Below, piece by piece: positions 7,874 to 14,401 of a DNA stretch of 14,401 bases; the stretch's first letter is position 1, and each line of letters opens with the position of its first letter. The position numbers and the translations under genes are program-made. Where the stretch lies: positions 1-14,401 of the forward strand of contig JAJRTK010000177.1 in assembly GCA_024278345.1 (NCBI GenBank), written 5' to 3'. This DNA is from a bacterium. Its GTDB lineage: Bacteria; CSSED10-310; JAJRTK01. The notes under the pieces are model-generated. The model worked only from the letters and a program-made list of their open reading frames with translations. It did not search any database and had not been told where the DNA came from.

Positions 7874-8524
7874 ATGGCTCAAGTATTCCACCGAAGCTTG
7901 AATTCAATTTCGAGGTTCGGCATCGTCGGGGGTGCGATTTTGGCGGCGGGTGTGGCACTGGGGCTGGCCGCAGCCTATCGTTCTTCCTTGGTCACCCAGG
8001 TCAATATTTCAAGAGCACAACCTGTGCCCTTCAGCCACAAGCACCACGTCAATGGTCTGGGCCTCGACTGCCGATATTGCCATACATCGGTGGAATCGTC
8101 TCCATTCGCGGGCATTCCGCCCACGCAGATCTGCATGAATTGCCATTCCCAGATCTGGTCGGACAGCCCAATGCTGGAACCCGTCCGGAAGAGTTTCCGA
8201 ACGGGAGAACCGCTCCATTGGACCCGGATTAACGATGTCCCGGACTTCGTTTACTTCAACCACAGTATCCATGTTCACAAGGGAATCGGTTGCGAGACCT
8301 GCCATGGGCGGGTGGACCGGATGCCGCTGACGTGGAAGGCGAATCCGCTTTACATGAAATGGTGTCTGGCCTGCCATCGAGCGCCGGAAGAGTATGTCCG
8401 CCCTCGTGAGGAAGTCTTCACCATGGGGTGGAAGCCGGCTGAAGATCAGGATTTGCTCGGTGCGCGACTAGTGAAGGAATACCACATCCAAAAACTCACT
8501 CACTGCAGCGTATGTCACCGATGA
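7874..8524 (+). CDS. actA: Alternative complex III pentaheme cytochrome c subunit ActA
   Basis: A 216-residue membrane-anchored multiheme cytochrome c. An N-terminal hydrophobic helix (about 15-35) acts as signal anchor; there is no convincing cleavage site, so the heme domain should stay tethered on the periplasmic side. Five CXXCH heme sites are present at 66-70 (CRYCH), 87-91 (CMNCH), 140-144 (CETCH), 164-168 (CLACH) and 211-215 (CSVCH). Extra histidines in FSHKHH (53-58) and YFNHSIHVHKG (127-136) can serve as distal ligands. This matches ActA of Rhodothermus-type alternative complex III, which accepts electrons from the Fe-S clusters of ActB. It is the first gene of the operon. Its stop overlaps the start of actB, which favours coupled translation. 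An AGGG about eight bases before the ATG is a modest ribosome site. Confidence 0.96.
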   Translation: MAQVFHRSLNSISRFGIVGGAILAAGVALGLAAAYRSSLVTQVNISRAQPVPFSHKHHVNGLGLDCRYCHTSVESSPFAGIPPTQICMNCHSQIWSDSPMLEPVRKSFRTGEPLHWTRINDVPDFVYFNHSIHVHKGIGCETCHGRVDRMPLTWKANPLYMKWCLACHRAPEEYVRPREEVFTMGWKPAEDQDLLGARLVKEYHIQKLTHCSVCHR

Positions 8525-11500
8525 ATTCACCAACGCAAAAACACAGACGATTCAATTTTGGCGATCTTCGGGACAATGTCCGGAGGGAAGGCGGCCCAAA
8601 CAATTGGCGAAGCCTCGACGAGCTGGCTGGGACAGACGAATTCCGCAAGTTCCTCCACGGGGAGTTTCCGGAGCAGGCGCCAGCTTTCTCTACCGAAGTG
8701 GGACGCCGAGGCTTTCTCAAGCTGATGGGCGCTTCGTTGGCCTTCGGTGGTTTGACGGCCTGCGGAATCCAGCAACCGCGAGAGGAGATCGTCCCCTACG
8801 TTCGAGCTCCCGAAGAAATCGTGCCCGGCCAACCGCTTTACTTCGCCACGGCGATGCCTCTTGGCGGTGTGGGGCTGGGACTCTTGGTAGAGAGCCACAT
8901 GGGCCGCCCCACCAAGATTGAGGGAAACCCTTCGCATCCGGCGAGCCTGGGTGGAACCGATGCCATCGCCCAAGCCTCGGTGCTGGAGCTCTACGATCCA
9001 GATCGCTCTAAATCGGTGGCAGGCAGGGGCCGCTTGACTTCTTGGAGCTCGTTTCTGGGACCGATGCGAGAGCATTTGGCGAACCAAAACGCGAAAAACG
9101 GGGCGGGTCTAAGGATTCTTACGGGAGCCGTTTCCTCGCCGACTCTGGGCCGCCAGCTCCAAGAGCTGCTGGAACAATATCCCGCCGCCCGATGGCACCA
9201 ATACGATCCGTTGTGGCGGGACAGTGCCTTTGAGGGTGGCCGGCAGGCGTTCGGTGAGCCCATCGACCTTTGTTATCGGCTGAAGCGGGCGGACGTCGTG
9301 CTCTCCCTCGACGCGGATTTCCTGACCCAAGGTCCCGGTCATGTCCGGTACTTGAAGGATTTTGCTTCCAGGCGCACTGCCCGGAACGGAGGGGAGAGCC
9401 TCAATCGGTTCTACGCCGTGGAATCGATGCCGACGGCGACGGGAACGATGGCGGATCACCGCTTATCCTTGGCGGTTCGGGATATCGAGATCTTCGTCCG
9501 GGCTCTTGCCTGGGAGTTTGGTATCGGTTCAGGACCAGCGGCGGCGGCCTTGGGGAAAAAGGATGCCCGCTGGCTGAAAGCGGTCAAGGACGATCTCTTC
9601 AGGCATAAAGGAAGCTGCCTGGTCATTCCGGGGTCCCATCTTTCCGCCGAAGCCCACGCGCTGTCTCACGCTATCAACCACGCCTTGGGGAACTTCGACC
9701 GAACGCTCTACGCCATTGGAAACGTGGCCGCGCGGCCGGAAAACCACCTGGAGTCTCTCAGGGACCTTGTGGAGGAGATGAAGGCGGAGAAGGTCGAGGT
9801 CCTCCTCATCCTTGGAGCGAACCCTGTCTATACCGCGCCAGCGGATCTCGAGTTTTCCCGGCACCTCCGGAAAGTGCCCATGTGCGTGCATCACGGGCTT
9901 TACCAGAATGAGACGGCCGGGCTTTGCCAGTGGCATATCCCGGCGGCGCATTATCTGGAGAGTTGGAGCGACATCCGCGCTTTCGACGGTACTGTTTCCA
10001 TCGTTCAACCCCTGATTGCTCCGCTGTACAATGGGCGGAGCGAACATGAATTCCTGGCGGCCCTCATGGGCCAGACAGGGAAGAAGGGGTACGAGATTGT
10101 CCGGAAATCGTGGAAGGAGAAGCTCCTTGGAGGCGAAGATGAGGCTTTGTGGCGCCGAGCCCTCCATGACGGAGTCGTCTCTGGCACGGCATCGCCGCCC
10201 AAGGCAGTGAAACTGGCCTCCGCTCTCCGGACCTCGGGTAGCAGAAGGCAGCCCTTGCCTCCATCTCCACGCAAGAAAGGGTTGGAGCTGGTTTTTCGCC
10301 TCGACCCATCCGTGGCGGATGGCCGTTTTGCCAACAATGGATGGCTCCAGGAGCTTCCGAAACCCTTGACCAAGATCGTCTGGGAAAACGCCGCGCTGAT
10401 TGGCGTGGCCACGGCCGAGGCGATGGGCCTTGCCAATGGCGATCTGGTGGAGCTTAAACTCGAAGGACGATCCCTGGAAGCGCCGGTTTGGATTGTGCCC
10501 GGCCATGGGAAGGAGTCCGTGACGCTTCACCTTGGATATGGCCGGAAGCGCGCTGGCCGGGTGGGCAATGGTCTTGGTTTCGACGCAAACGCACTCCGAG
10601 TCTCCTATGCTCCCGGGGCGGCTCACGGCGCAAAGCTTGTGCAAACGCGGCGGCAGCATTCTTTGGTCAGCACGCAGCACCACCACAGCATGGAGAGCCG
10701 CCACTTGGTGCGTACCGCCACGAAAGAGCAGTTCGCCCGGAATCCCGACTTTGTTCACGAGTCAAAGATTCCTGGCTTGGATGAGAACCTCAGTCTTTAC
10801 CCCGGTTTCGAATACGACGGATATGCCTGGAGCATGGTGGTGGATCTGGGGGCCTGCGTGGGCTGCAATGCTTGCGTCACGGCTTGCCAGGCGGAAAACA
10901 ATGTTCCAGTGGTGGGCAAGGAAGAGGTGGCTGCGGGCCGAGAAATGCACTGGTTGCGGGTAGACGGCTACCATCAGGGAAGTCCCGACGCCCCGAAATT
11001 CCTTCATCAGCCCGTCATGTGCCAGCACTGCGAACAGGCCCCGTGCGAAGTGGTCTGTCCGGTGAACGCCACCGTGCATAGCCCCGAGGGACTCAACGAG
11101 ATGGTCTACAACCGGTGCGTCGGCACGCGGTACTGCTCCAACAACTGTCCCTACAAGGTTCGCCGGTTTAATTTCTACCAGTATTCGGATCTCGAGACGG
11201 AGAGCCTGAAGTTAGGCCGCAATCCCGACGTAACGGTGCGCAACCGCGGTGTCATGGAGAAGTGCTCCTACTGCGTACAGCGGATCAATCTGGCCCGGAT
11301 CGCCGCGAAGAACGAAGATCGCGTGATCCTTGATGGCGAGGTCGTCACGGCATGCCAGTCGGCCTGTCCCACGGACGCCATCGTTTTCGGGGATCGAAAC
11401 GACAAGGGGAGCAGGGTGGCGAAGCTTCAAGGGAGTCCCCTCAATTACGGACTCTTGACCGAGCTGGGCACTCGTCCACGGACCTCCTATTTGGCCAGAG

Positions 11501-11535
11501 TCACCAACCCCAACCCCGAGATCGAGGCTCTGTAG
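8512..11535 (+). CDS. actB: Alternative complex III fused molybdopterin-like / Fe-S subunit ActB
   Basis: A 1007-residue fusion typical of ActB. After a soluble N-terminal stretch with SLDELAGTDEFRKFL comes a Tat-type motif RRGFLK (65-70) and a hydrophobic segment ending in a cysteine (TACG, about 82-85). Residues about 95-745 form the B1 domain, related to molybdopterin oxidoreductases (HMGRPTKIEGNPSHPASLGG) but without the usual N-terminal Fe-S cysteine cluster; in characterised ActB this domain carries no molybdenum. Residues about 775-985 form the B2 ferredoxin-like domain with C782/785/788/792, C837/840/845/849, C869/875/879 and C918/921/948/952. The third group reads CVGTRYCSNNCP, with Thr872 in a cysteine position, which fits the one [3Fe-4S] plus three [4Fe-4S] set known for the complex. 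It passes electrons from ActC quinol to ActA. An alternative start is ATG 8521, overlapping the actA stop as ATGA. Confidence 0.97.
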   Translation: MSPMNSPTQKHRRFNFGDLRDNVRREGGPNNWRSLDELAGTDEFRKFLHGEFPEQAPAFSTEVGRRGFLKLMGASLAFGGLTACGIQQPREEIVPYVRAPEEIVPGQPLYFATAMPLGGVGLGLLVESHMGRPTKIEGNPSHPASLGGTDAIAQASVLELYDPDRSKSVAGRGRLTSWSSFLGPMREHLANQNAKNGAGLRILTGAVSSPTLGRQLQELLEQYPAARWHQYDPLWRDSAFEGGRQAFGEPIDLCYRLKRADVVLSLDADFLTQGPGHVRYLKDFASRRTARNGGESLNRFYAVESMPTATGTMADHRLSLAVRDIEIFVRALAWEFGIGSGPAAAALGKKDARWLKAVKDDLFRHKGSCLVIPGSHLSAEAHALSHAINHALGNFDRTLYAIGNVAARPENHLESLRDLVEEMKAEKVEVLLILGANPVYTAPADLEFSRHLRKVPMCVHHGLYQNETAGLCQWHIPAAHYLESWSDIRAFDGTVSIVQPLIAPLYNGRSEHEFLAALMGQTGKKGYEIVRKSWKEKLLGGEDEALWRRALHDGVVSGTASPPKAVKLASALRTSGSRRQPLPPSPRKKGLELVFRLDPSVADGRFANNGWLQELPKPLTKIVWENAALIGVATAEAMGLANGDLVELKLEGRSLEAPVWIVPGHGKESVTLHLGYGRKRAGRVGNGLGFDANALRVSYAPGAAHGAKLVQTRRQHSLVSTQHHHSMESRHLVRTATKEQFARNPDFVHESKIPGLDENLSLYPGFEYDGYAWSMVVDLGACVGCNACVTACQAENNVPVVGKEEVAAGREMHWLRVDGYHQGSPDAPKFLHQPVMCQHCEQAPCEVVCPVNATVHSPEGLNEMVYNRCVGTRYCSNNCPYKVRRFNFYQYSDLETESLKLGRNPDVTVRNRGVMEKCSYCVQRINLARIAAKNEDRVILDGEVVTACQSACPTDAIVFGDRNDKGSRVAKLQGSPLNYGLLTELGTRPRTSYLARVTNPNPEIEAL

Positions 11536-11539
11536 CGCC

Positions 11540-12949
11540 ATGGTAGTAGGCAAGTCAGAAAGTTTTACCGCGACGCTTCAAGAGGCTCCATTGATCGAGC
11601 CGGGGCACAGTTACGCGTCGATGACTGAGAAGATCAGCGACATCGTCTTGACAAAGCCCCATCCCCGAAGCTGGGCCATCGTATTTCTGACGGGCCTCTC
11701 TCTCTTGATGCTCATGCTCTACGCGGTCCTCTATCTTTTTATTCGGGGGATCGGCATCTGGGGCATCAACGTGCCGGTGGGCTGGGGTTTTGCCATCATC
11801 AATCTGGTCTGGTGGATCGGGATCGGCCACGCGGGCACGCTGATCTCGGCGATCCTGCTCTTGCTGCACCAGGACTGGCGGACCTCTATCAACCGGTTCG
11901 CCGAAGCGATGACGTTGTTTGCCGTGGCTTGCGCGGGGCTTTTTCCCATCCTGCACACCGGGCGGCCCTGGCTTGTCTACTACCTGATTCCCTATCCCGA
12001 CACCCTGGGACTCTGGCCGCAATTCCGGAGCCCGCTGGTTTGGGATGTCTTCGCGATTTCCACCTATGCCAGCGTGTCACTCCTGTTTTGGTACGTGGGC
12101 CTGCTCCCCGACCTGGCGACCATGCGGGACAGAGCCAAGAACCGCTTCGCCCGGGTCATCTATGGACTCTTCGCCCTTGGATGGCGTGGATCGGCGCGTC
12201 ACTGGCATCGGCATCAAGTCGCTTCCCTTCTTCTTGCCGGCTTGGCGACACCCTTGGTGGTTTCGGTGCATACGGTGGTGAGCTGGGACTTCGCCATGTC
12301 CATCATTCCCGGCTGGCACGCCACGATTTTTCCACCCTATTTCGTAGCCGGGGCGATCTATGCCGGTTTCGCCATGGTGATGACCCTTGTGATCCCCATC
12401 CGGCATTGGTACGGGCTTCAAGATTTCATTACGATCCGCCACATCGAAAACATGGCGAAGATCACCCTCGCCACGGGTCTCATCGTCTGTTACGGCTATC
12501 TGATGGAGGCCTTCATGGCGTGGTACAGCGCCAATCCGTACGAGCAGTTCATGATGCACAACCGGCAGTTTGGGCCCTACGCGCCTGTCTACTGGACGCT
12601 GATCTTCTGCAATGGCGTAGTGATCCAGGCGCTCTGGTTCAAAAAGGTGCGAACGAATGTGAAGATTCTCTTCGGCATTTCGCTCATTGTCGGCGTAGGG
12701 ATGTGGCTGGAGCGGTACATCATTGTCGTGACCAGCCTCCACCGCGACTTTCTGCCCTCGTCGTGGGGAATGTATGCCGGGACCTTTTGGGATTACGCGA
12801 CGTTCTTGGGCTCTATCGGCCTCTTCTTGACCCTGTTGATGTTGTTCGTCCGGTTTGTTCCCATGATCTCTGGCTTCGAGCTGCGAGAGCTCTGGTGGAA
12901 ACTGAACCGTTCCGCCAAGGATGAAGCTTCTGACAAAGCCGCGGCCTAG
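11540..12949 (+). CDS. actC: Alternative complex III quinol-binding membrane subunit ActC (NrfD/PsrC-like)
   Basis: A 469-residue polytopic membrane protein with roughly ten hydrophobic helices, the first at about 45-68, then 82-110, 122-140, 168-190 and on to 423-440, between charged tails. Family marks are PRSWAIVFL, WGINVPVGWGFAIINLVWWIGIGHAGT (start about 74), FPILHTGRPW (H139) and SPLVWDVFAISTY (D169), then VHTVVSWDFAMSIIPGWH in the later half. H139 and D169 occupy positions expected for the quinol pocket near the periplasmic face; that role is taken from the known complex, not shown here. ActC oxidises menaquinol or ubiquinol and feeds the ActB clusters; conserved acidic and histidine residues in a second helix bundle are thought to conduct protons. 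It starts four bases after actB, with no obvious ribosome site, so translation is probably coupled. ATG 11621 (MTEKISD) is a possible inner start. Confidence 0.96.
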   Translation: MVVGKSESFTATLQEAPLIEPGHSYASMTEKISDIVLTKPHPRSWAIVFLTGLSLLMLMLYAVLYLFIRGIGIWGINVPVGWGFAIINLVWWIGIGHAGTLISAILLLLHQDWRTSINRFAEAMTLFAVACAGLFPILHTGRPWLVYYLIPYPDTLGLWPQFRSPLVWDVFAISTYASVSLLFWYVGLLPDLATMRDRAKNRFARVIYGLFALGWRGSARHWHRHQVASLLLAGLATPLVVSVHTVVSWDFAMSIIPGWHATIFPPYFVAGAIYAGFAMVMTLVIPIRHWYGLQDFITIRHIENMAKITLATGLIVCYGYLMEAFMAWYSANPYEQFMMHNRQFGPYAPVYWTLIFCNGVVIQALWFKKVRTNVKILFGISLIVGVGMWLERYIIVVTSLHRDFLPSSWGMYAGTFWDYATFLGSIGLFLTLLMLFVRFVPMISGFELRELWWKLNRSAKDEASDKAAA

Positions 12950-12963
12950 GGAGTGTGTGAGCG

Positions 12964-13503
12964 ATGGATTCAAGTTCCGCGATTCATGGATATGTCGCCG
13001 AGTTCGAAAAGGCAGAGCAGTTGGTGGCCGCTACCCGCCGCACGCGGCTGGCGGGGTATCGAGTCTTCGACGCTTATAGCCCATTCCCGGTCCACGGGCT
13101 GGACGAAGCCATGGGCCACCCGAGAACCATCTTGCCCTGGTTGGTCTTCTTGGGCGGGCTAGCCGGGGGTGTTGGAGGGTATCTTCTCCAGTACTATCCC
13201 CACGTCATCGACTATCCCCTGAATGTGGGCGGCCGCCCGCTGAACAGTTGGCCGTCTTTCATCCCGGTCACGTTCGAGATGACGATTCTCGGTGCTGCTC
13301 TGGTGGCTGTTTTTGGGATGATCATTCTCAATGGCCTTCCTCAACATTACCACCCGATCTTCAACCTGGAGCGGTTCGAAAGGGCTTCCCAGGACCGGTT
13401 CTTTTTGTGCATCGAAACGAAAGACCCAAAATTCAACAAGACCGAAACCAGGGAGTTTCTCCTTGAGCTGGGCGCATCCGAGGTCTCCGAGTGTGAGGAG
13501 TGA
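12964..13503 (+). CDS. actD: Alternative complex III membrane subunit ActD (DUF3341)
   Basis: A 179-residue protein with the DUF3341 layout. A cytoplasmic N-terminal alpha/beta domain begins IHGYVAEFEKAEQLVAATRR and contains GYRVFDAYSPFPVHGLDEAMG (from 31), followed by two transmembrane helices at about 56-78 and 98-123 joined by a loop with YPLNVGGRPLNSWPSF, and a C-terminal tail with HPIFNLERFERASQDRFFLCIE. It carries no cofactor motif. In the known complex ActD packs beside ActC and stabilises the membrane part. It starts 14 bases after actC; GTGTGTGAGCG before the ATG gives only a weak ribosome site (GAG). The end of this gene contains the strong AGGAG that serves the next start. Confidence 0.95.
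   Translation: MDSSSAIHGYVAEFEKAEQLVAATRRTRLAGYRVFDAYSPFPVHGLDEAMGHPRTILPWLVFLGGLAGGVGGYLLQYYPHVIDYPLNVGGRPLNSWPSFIPVTFEMTILGAALVAVFGMIILNGLPQHYHPIFNLERFERASQDRFFLCIETKDPKFNKTETREFLLELGASEVSECEE
13496..13500 (+). promoter_or_regulatory. Strong Shine-Dalgarno site deciding the actE start
   Basis: AGGAG lies four bases before ATG 13505 and inside the last codons of actD. It is a good ribosome site and supports the long version of actE. The later ATG 13670 has no comparable site, only GAAAG a few bases upstream. Confidence 0.6.
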
Positions 13504-13504
13504 C

Positions 13505-14401
13505 ATGAGGCGCGAAACGAACCCAGGACGTGGCCGCGAAACTTCCTTGGCAAAGAGACGAATGGCTTTTTTTTCTCTTCGGGTTGGGGTCCGCTCGCAT
13601 CAGCGGCTATCCAGCCGACTGCTGCTCGCCCATCCTCGCCCTTGGCCGTCTCTCCAGGCCCCGAAAGCGATGCACGACCGAAAAACAGGTGACGCATTTT
13701 TTCGGCGGCGGGCCGGAATCCCTTGGATGGGGGCTCTTGTGATCCTCCTGGCCGGCTGCACCGACATGTACGACCAGCCGAGGCACGAACCGCTGGAGGC
13801 GAGCAACTTCTTTTCCGACGGAGCCTCTTCGAGGCCCCTTGTCCAGGGAACCGTTGCCCGAGGCCAGCTCCGCCTTGACAGCCATCTCTACCGGGGAAAG
13901 CTCAACGGGACGCCTGCCAAGGCGTTTCCCATGCCCATCACGCGGGAGCTCGTGGCCCGGGGCCGAGACCGCTTCAACATTTACTGCTCTCCGTGCCACG
14001 ACAAGACGGGCGGTGGGAACGGGATGATCGTGCAGCGGGGTTTCAACCCGCCTCCCTCGCTTCACATCGATCGCCTCAAACGGGCTCCCGTAGGCACCAT
14101 TTTTGGCGTGATCAGCAATGGTTTCGGCGCCATGCCGAGCTATGCCGTCCAAGTTCCCATTCTGGATCGCTGGGCCATCGCCGCCTACGTCCGCGCTCTG
14201 CAGCTCGCCCAAAGTGCCCCTCTTGAGCGGGTTCCCTCCGAGATACGCAAGAAGCTGGAAGGGTATCCACGCAAGGCGGGACAGAACAGAAAAAAAAGGA
14301 AAACGCGTAGCGTACAAAAACGTGGGTCCAGGGAGCGCGCTCCCTGGTGGGTGCAGGGCGAAGCCCTGCCAGGGGACGGGGGATGGAATCCCCGGACCAC
14401 C
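13505..14401 (+). CDS. actE: Alternative complex III monoheme lipoprotein cytochrome c ActE, 3' end open at window edge
   Basis: The frame from ATG 13505 stays open for 299 codons to the last base. Family features start inside it: a basic N-region FFRRR, hydrophobic GALVILLAGC with lipobox cysteine C85, then DMYDQPRHEPLEASNFF, a typical ActE opening. GTVARGQLRLD and the heme site CSPCH (161-165) follow, with a likely distal ligand in GAMPSYA (M210). ActE is an outer-facing lipid-anchored cytochrome c that can hand electrons onward, usually to a terminal oxidase. The start is unsettled. The strong ribosome site favours 13505, but lipoprotein processing favours ATG 13670, which puts the cysteine at residue 30. 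After LEGYPRK (about 251-257) the tail turns strongly basic and then reads through a hairpin repeat, unlike known ActE ends; see the A8 run at 14290-14297. The gene begins one base after the actD stop. Confidence 0.9.
   Translation, partial: MRRETNPGRGRETSLAKRRMAFFSLRVGVRSHQRLSSRLLLAHPRPWPSLQAPKAMHDRKTGDAFFRRRAGIPWMGALVILLAGCTDMYDQPRHEPLEASNFFSDGASSRPLVQGTVARGQLRLDSHLYRGKLNGTPAKAFPMPITRELVARGRDRFNIYCSPCHDKTGGGNGMIVQRGFNPPPSLHIDRLKRAPVGTIFGVISNGFGAMPSYAVQVPILDRWAIAAYVRALQLAQSAPLERVPSEIRKKLEGYPRKAGQNRKKRKTRSVQKRGSRERAPWWVQGEALPGDGGWNPRTT
14325..14398. repeat. Compact three-hairpin palindromic element inside the actE reading frame
   Basis: Three adjacent perfect hairpins are present. The first is a 20-base palindrome at 14328-14347 built on CAGGGAGCG/CGCTCCCTG. 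The second is GCAGGGC-GAA-GCCCTGC at 14353-14369. The third is GGGGAT-GGA-ATCCCC at 14379-14393. GGTCC (14325-14329) can pair with GGACC (14394-14398) to close them into a clover-like fold, though its last two bases compete with the first hairpin. A small ACGC-GTA-GCGT hairpin and A-rich sequence precede it. This is the form of dispersed intergenic repeats of the REP/multi-hairpin kind. Only one copy is in the window, so its repetitive nature is inferred from form. Confidence 0.65.

Follow-up and report, generated by a model that had tools for sequence, protein, structure and literature searches.

The right end of the window (the whole stretch of DNA analysed, which is the complete contig C99 of 14,401 bp) carries an operon for alternative complex III (ACIII), with genes for a pentaheme cytochrome, ActB, ActC and ActD followed by an ActE frame, and the question raised by this locus is where and how actE ends. 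As the initial annotation had pointed out, the actE frame is stop-free through an A-rich tract and three hairpins; it is open from upstream of 13505 through 14401, the contig end, and its stop is not visible in the window because the right end of the contig falls inside a repeat. The genome is a 6.06-Mb draft in 550 contigs, 87.9% complete with 2.1% contamination. The answer reached here is that actE very probably took up a MITE with 23-bp terminal inverted repeats (TIRs) in its last codons, and that this MITE was most likely moved in trans by a DUF6399-type transposase that is seen in this genome as relics.

The features concerned are as follows (window coordinates unless another contig is named).

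7874-8524, pentaheme cytochrome
8512-11535, ActB
11540-12949, ActC (PF03916)
12964-13503, ActD (PF11821, 238 bits)
13670-14260 (+), native part of actE, a monoheme cytochrome c lipoprotein of ACIII (PF13442, 41.3 bits)
14253-14260 (+), left target-site copy, AGCTGGAA
14261-14401 (+), left 141 bases of the MITE, encoding the C-terminal tail GYPRKAGQNRKKRKTRSVQKRGSRERAPWWVQGEALPGDGGWNPRTT, which continues as AER and a stop on contig C265
14261-14283 (+), left TIR of the MITE, the sole TIR match within the window
14284-14321 (+), A-rich subterminal stretch of this MITE subtype, encoding the basic portion of the tail
14328-14347 (+), hairpin 1 of the MITE core
14353-14369 (+), hairpin 2 of the MITE core
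14379-14393 (+), hairpin 3 of the MITE core, whose closing pair is C-G or U-A and, in 8 of 20 copies, varies on each side
C265:181-188, right target-site copy, GACTGGAA

The native part of actE has the lipobox LLAGC and the heme motif CSPCH, and ActE orthologues are 55, 50 and 48% identical to it. The likely start is the ATG at 13670, which precedes a normal lipoprotein signal ending in LLAGC and is consistent with the lipobox reported for ActE of Rhodothermus (PMC5928083). The ATG at 13505, where the open frame could also start, is probably too far upstream, considering the position of the signal peptide. A second, diverged ACIII gene set is present on C24 (L123, 5138-12643, minus strand) with its own E and F genes; its identities to the window operon and C265 are 31% (ActA), 39% (ActB), 55% (ActC), 32% (ActD), 36% (ActE) and 32% (ActF).

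A MITE family with a three-hairpin core

When the contig end was used as a search query, the sequence shared with other parts of the genome was found to begin exactly at 14261. The 141 bases from there on are 100% identical to copies on C523 and C91, and in other copies the 23-base TIR (GGGTATCCACGCAAGGCGGGACA) recurs in inverted orientation about 100 bases past the window's share of the element. Complete copies span GGGTATCCACGCAAGGCGGGACA to TGTCCCGCCTTGCGTGGATACCC, most with about 210-303 bp between the TIRs; the window copy shows the left half only. The target duplications are 8 or 9 bp long and many are perfect, those at full copies including GAACCACA, GCGAGATC, CCAGTCGG, TCGAGTTC and AGCGGGTC (8 bp) and CCCTGGCAT, GCCTTTTGC and GACGATGAG (9 bp). 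The TIR has 413 matches in the genome at three or fewer mismatches, compared with zero for the reversed control. Since each full element is counted twice and each contig-cut copy once, this number corresponds to about 207 to 413 elements. No TIR match was found in 59 other genomes, seven of which are from the same phylum, and the 242-bp copies, which were translated in all six frames, are too short to hold a transposase gene. By its size, TIRs, duplications and copy number, the window repeat is a member of a TIR-bounded MITE family.

At least 40 places in the genome match the 80-base core with its three hairpins, and at seven, counting the window, the identity is 100%. Pairing in the three window hairpins is perfect or near-perfect. 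In 20 variant copies 98.8% of the hairpin pairs are formed, in contrast to 37-57% when the partners are slid by 1-3 columns. Taken by itself, the window strand folds with an energy only slightly better than that of shuffles (z -1.84), and the case for the element therefore rests on its repetition. A search of Rfam gave nothing above the gathering score, the best match being Clostridiales-2 at 18.1 bits against a cut-off of 58.6.

The initial annotation had described a dispersed palindromic element of 74 bases at 14325-14398 and had proposed a search for further copies. Many copies were indeed found and the element is dispersed, but its extent has to be revised to that of a TIR-bounded MITE some 240 bp in length: because the repeat starts at 14261 and not at 14325, the A-rich tract belongs to the element. 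The same A-rich stretch follows the TIR in other copies, for example on C134, C91, C343 and C179.

The three-hairpin core is also found without recognisable TIRs, beside other short palindromic repeats, at three loci (L017, L022 and L023, on C26, C321 and C546), so that the core may be an older repeat captured between TIRs. As a separate observation, in several copies (e.g. L129:9804-10045) the 242-bp MITE has no stop in four of its six frames, against about one expected from shuffles. The possible depletion of stops (P about 0.003-0.02 for single copies) is a lead only, the copies being related and not independent.

The probable insertion site and the predicted new end of ActE

The junction between actE and the MITE lies at 14260/14261, exactly at a TIR edge. 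When the right junction to be expected was searched for, three loose matches came up, and of these only the one on C265 adjoins actF. There the MITE end is followed by CTGGAAGAAGAGAAACCATGA and then by actF, the junction reading TGGATACCC|GACTGGAAGAAGAGAAACCATGACAGAG. The ActF encoded on C265 shares 44.6% identity with its counterpart next to ActE in genome G019, and the C265 protein is assigned to the window operon because the second ACIII set, on C24, carries its own E and F. The two target copies, AGCTGGAA and GACTGGAA, match at 6 of 8 positions and thus form an imperfect duplication. When the flanks are joined with one target copy, they read ...GAG ATA CGC AAG AAG CTG GAA GAA GAG AAA CCA TGA and encode ...EIRKKLEEEKP*, with the TGA overlapping the ATG of actF (ATGA). 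This in-frame restored end places the insertion four codons (EEKP) before the native stop.

Positions 1-23 of C265 differ from 14300-14321 of the window and belong to a different MITE subtype, so C99 and C265 cannot be merged base for base. The mismatch is attributed to drift of the assembly into another copy at the end of C265, or to strain mixture. The whole insertion is spanned by no contig or read; from the evidence on both sides we infer that C99 and C265 lie on either side of a single insertion.

With the MITE in place, ActE is predicted to lose EEKP and to gain about 50 basic residues. The predicted tail, GYPRKAGQNRKKRKTRSVQKRGSRERAPWWVQGEALPGDGGWNPRTT in the window plus AER and TAG from C265, has 50 residues, 14 of them K or R and 4 D or E, and would yield tryptic peptides such as APWWVQGEALPGDGGWNPR; the exact stop (AER*) is that read on C265 and would end 84 bp before actF. 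Among the distinct contexts of other copies, about half close this frame after a few codons (FG*, YG*, AG*, AER*), and the rest leave it open. The MITE tail is absent from all the ActE orthologue ends read, namely those of G003 and G032 and of nine loci at which the ActE frame is readable and actF comes next. The orthologue C-termini diverge past RWAIxAYxRALQ, which places the tail on a variable end of ActE. These results agree with the initial annotation, according to which the likeness to ActE ends at about 14262 and gives way to a basic tail coded by what looked like a dispersed palindromic element. Of its two alternatives, an element that entered actE at the 3' end and took the place of the native stop, or a stop in another frame, the first is borne out. 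The insertion is supported by the C265 junction and the restored end, and the comparison of orthologues that it proposed leaves this reading standing. The real stop and actF, which it suggested should be sought to the right, are both on C265, as the AER-stop within the MITE and the actF behind it.

Coding copies of the element are rare. A codon-usage score trained on this genome was applied to the 150 bp adjoining each of 134 scorable element edges and, the score being modest per site, only the bulk contrast is used. No coding signal is present beside 128 of the 134 edges, compared with 54.5% of random positions. A coding frame reads into the element at three edges, compared with 23.5% of random positions (binomial 3e-12), which bears out the earlier expectation that a coding copy would be unusual. 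Coding insertions of the MITE thus occur at no more than 3 of the 134 scorable edges in this genome. The three are actE, an ORF that has no Pfam support, and an exosortase-like gene whose frame enters a degenerate copy. The exosortase-like gene (PF09721, 44 bits; L174:1379 on C373, minus strand) is a second candidate for a C-terminal fusion.

Three other explanations of the actE end may be considered. The assembler may have run from actE into an unrelated repeat copy, the true actE end being intact. Such a chimera would be favoured by a contig end inside a high-copy repeat, by the 43 of 124 contig ends that lie inside such elements (a biased sample), and by the disagreement of C265 and C99 over about 20 bases at the C265 end. 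It is nevertheless quite improbable, because on a separate, independent contig the other MITE end stands immediately before CTGGAAGAAGAGAAACCATGA and actF, the joined flanks give an in-frame actE end whose stop overlaps the actF start, and the junction falls exactly at the TIR edge, where a true insertion boundary belongs. A mixed population, in which cells with an empty site coexist with cells carrying the MITE and C99 and C265 may stem from different strains or insertions, is unlikely, though less so than the chimera. In its favour, the target duplication is imperfect, C265:1-23 is of another subtype, and the draft is fragmented, incomplete and slightly contaminated. Against it, only the C265 match among the three loose ones adjoins actF. 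A native ActE tail in this lineage, with only a chance likeness to the repeat, is scarcely credible; the frame is open through the element, but the 141 bases are identical to the copies on C523 and C91 and the orthologues lack the tail, by which this reading is refuted.

Under the preferred reading, the insertion of a MITE within the last codons of actE would have displaced the native stop. Ribosomes would then read into the MITE and stop inside it, so that a basic tail of about 50 residues would replace EEKP, and actF, with 84 bp between it and the new stop, would lose the termination-reinitiation coupling provided by ATGA. A four-base overlap of stop and start is a typical arrangement for coupled translation and was needed in two model organisms, in which distances of about 20 nt almost abolish coupling (PMC10666635). 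Instead, actF may rely on its own ribosome site, GGAAGAAGAG, which is intact beside the element; independent initiation is plausible because this site is kept just upstream of the actF ATG. The insertion would be tolerated, since the end of ActE is not conserved. In Flavobacterium johnsoniae, electron transfer to cytochrome aa3 does not require ActE, although growth is slower without it (PMC8552683).

Candidate mobilisers of the MITE

The mobiliser of the MITE is likely to be a DUF6399 transposase, as judged from shared ends. Decayed DUF6399 copies are present at C188 (L187/L191) 2-580, C390:21266-21652, C393:1947-2069 and C507:2847-2976, and those on C188, C390 and C393 end in the MITE TIR with 3-4 mismatches. 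In the C188 relic TTTGTCCCGCCTTAAGTGAATACCC comes after the DUF6399 domain, which scores 158 bits against a cut-off of 35.4, and the end of the relic reads TGTCCCGCCTTAAGTGAATACCC. No intact DUF6399 copy was found in this genome, and mobilisation would have been in trans by a transposase that is now represented only by relics. An element of 2505 bp with a DUF6399 CDS (222.5 bits) is present on plasmid pCRI9333.07 of Crinalium epipsammum (L196:519-3023). It has perfect 23-bp TIRs, GGCTACCAATCTAAGGCGGGACA, whose inner 11 bases are those of the MITE TIR, and is flanked by an 8-bp duplication, CGTTTTCT; this arrangement is evidence that DUF6399 is part of a transposase. Behind DUF6399, Acaryochloris, Methylomonas and genome G271 have right ends that resemble these; none was found at the Thiodictyon copy.

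Pfam lists DUF6399 as a domain of unknown function, and a full-text literature search found no paper naming it. Three residues, D142, D198 and E451, are invariant across three diverse DUF6399 proteins, and weak Pfam matches suggest an N-terminal helix-turn-helix; together these would fit a predicted DDE transposase. No solved structure matches DUF6399 by sequence, no relatives were found in viral contigs or phages, and a protein scan of the genome-contig collection found no relative.

The window has a transposase of its own at the left end, where the N-terminal part of an IS1595-family transposase (1-508) runs off the contig. Its zinc ribbon, at 3-416, and target duplications of 8 bp, which also fit IS1595, could be taken to indicate that this element mobilises the MITE. 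This is highly improbable, because the IS1595 end, GGCTCTATATGCGATCCAGGGATCT (reverse complement at 484-508), is unlike the MITE TIR and no MITE TIR is nearby. The origin of the MITE from IS1595 is rejected for the same difference of ends. IS1595 remnants are also present on C295 and C322, and the GGCTCTATATGCGATCCAGGGATCT end sequence is found within a MITE on C88 (L120:10998).

Comparison with known systems and significance

The actE case may be compared with four known systems. In Coxiella burnetii strain Dugway, an in-frame QMITE2 at the 3' end of enhC supplies the last 33 aa, with the stop directly after, and all the functional genes affected in that genome are hit at their 3' ends (PMC5896051). 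As in actE, the C-terminus of the protein comes from a MITE at the gene's 3' end, but the element is unrelated, and two strains were compared there whereas a single draft genome is considered here. The RU-1 repeat in the Erwinia carotovora amidase gene ECA3499 did away with the normal stop and extended the protein from 461 to 496 aa beyond the conserved domain (PMC2759123); again a short mobile repeat takes away the stop and lengthens the protein, although element and host are unrelated to those studied here. The Chunjie MITE of Geobacter uraniireducens, of up to about 235 bp, has TIRs, 38 full-length copies and many full and partial copies that are mostly intergenic, one of them disrupting an operon (reviewed in PMC10969869). 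By description it resembles the present MITE in size, TIRs and copy pattern, the copy numbers being 38 full-length copies versus 413 TIR matches. The Rickettsia palindromic elements are palindromic repeats that have turned protein-coding, in frame inside many genes (reviewed in PMC10969869). In actE, too, a palindromic repeat becomes coding sequence; unlike them, however, the present MITE avoids genes, and ActE ends in the element. With coding sequence reading into it at 3 of the 134 scorable edges at most, the MITE is not assigned to that class.

The actE case is clearly a further example of a known, uncommon event, a C-terminus supplied by a MITE, in a new element family. A wider reading, which is put forward tentatively, is that the DUF6399 proteins are the transposases of an IS group whose MITEs reach hundreds of copies in this genome, one of which supplies a translated and tolerated C-terminus of ActE and a three-hairpin spacer that replaces the ATGA coupling of actE and actF. 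In the preferred reading of actE, a burst of repeats has edited a core energy-metabolism operon, changing the end of a protein and breaking a four-base stop/start overlap. The high copy number of the MITE also helps to explain the assembly of this genome into 550 pieces. The link to DUF6399 would be a more useful by-product than the actE case, as it offers a concrete handle on this domain, probably that of the transposase of an IS group.
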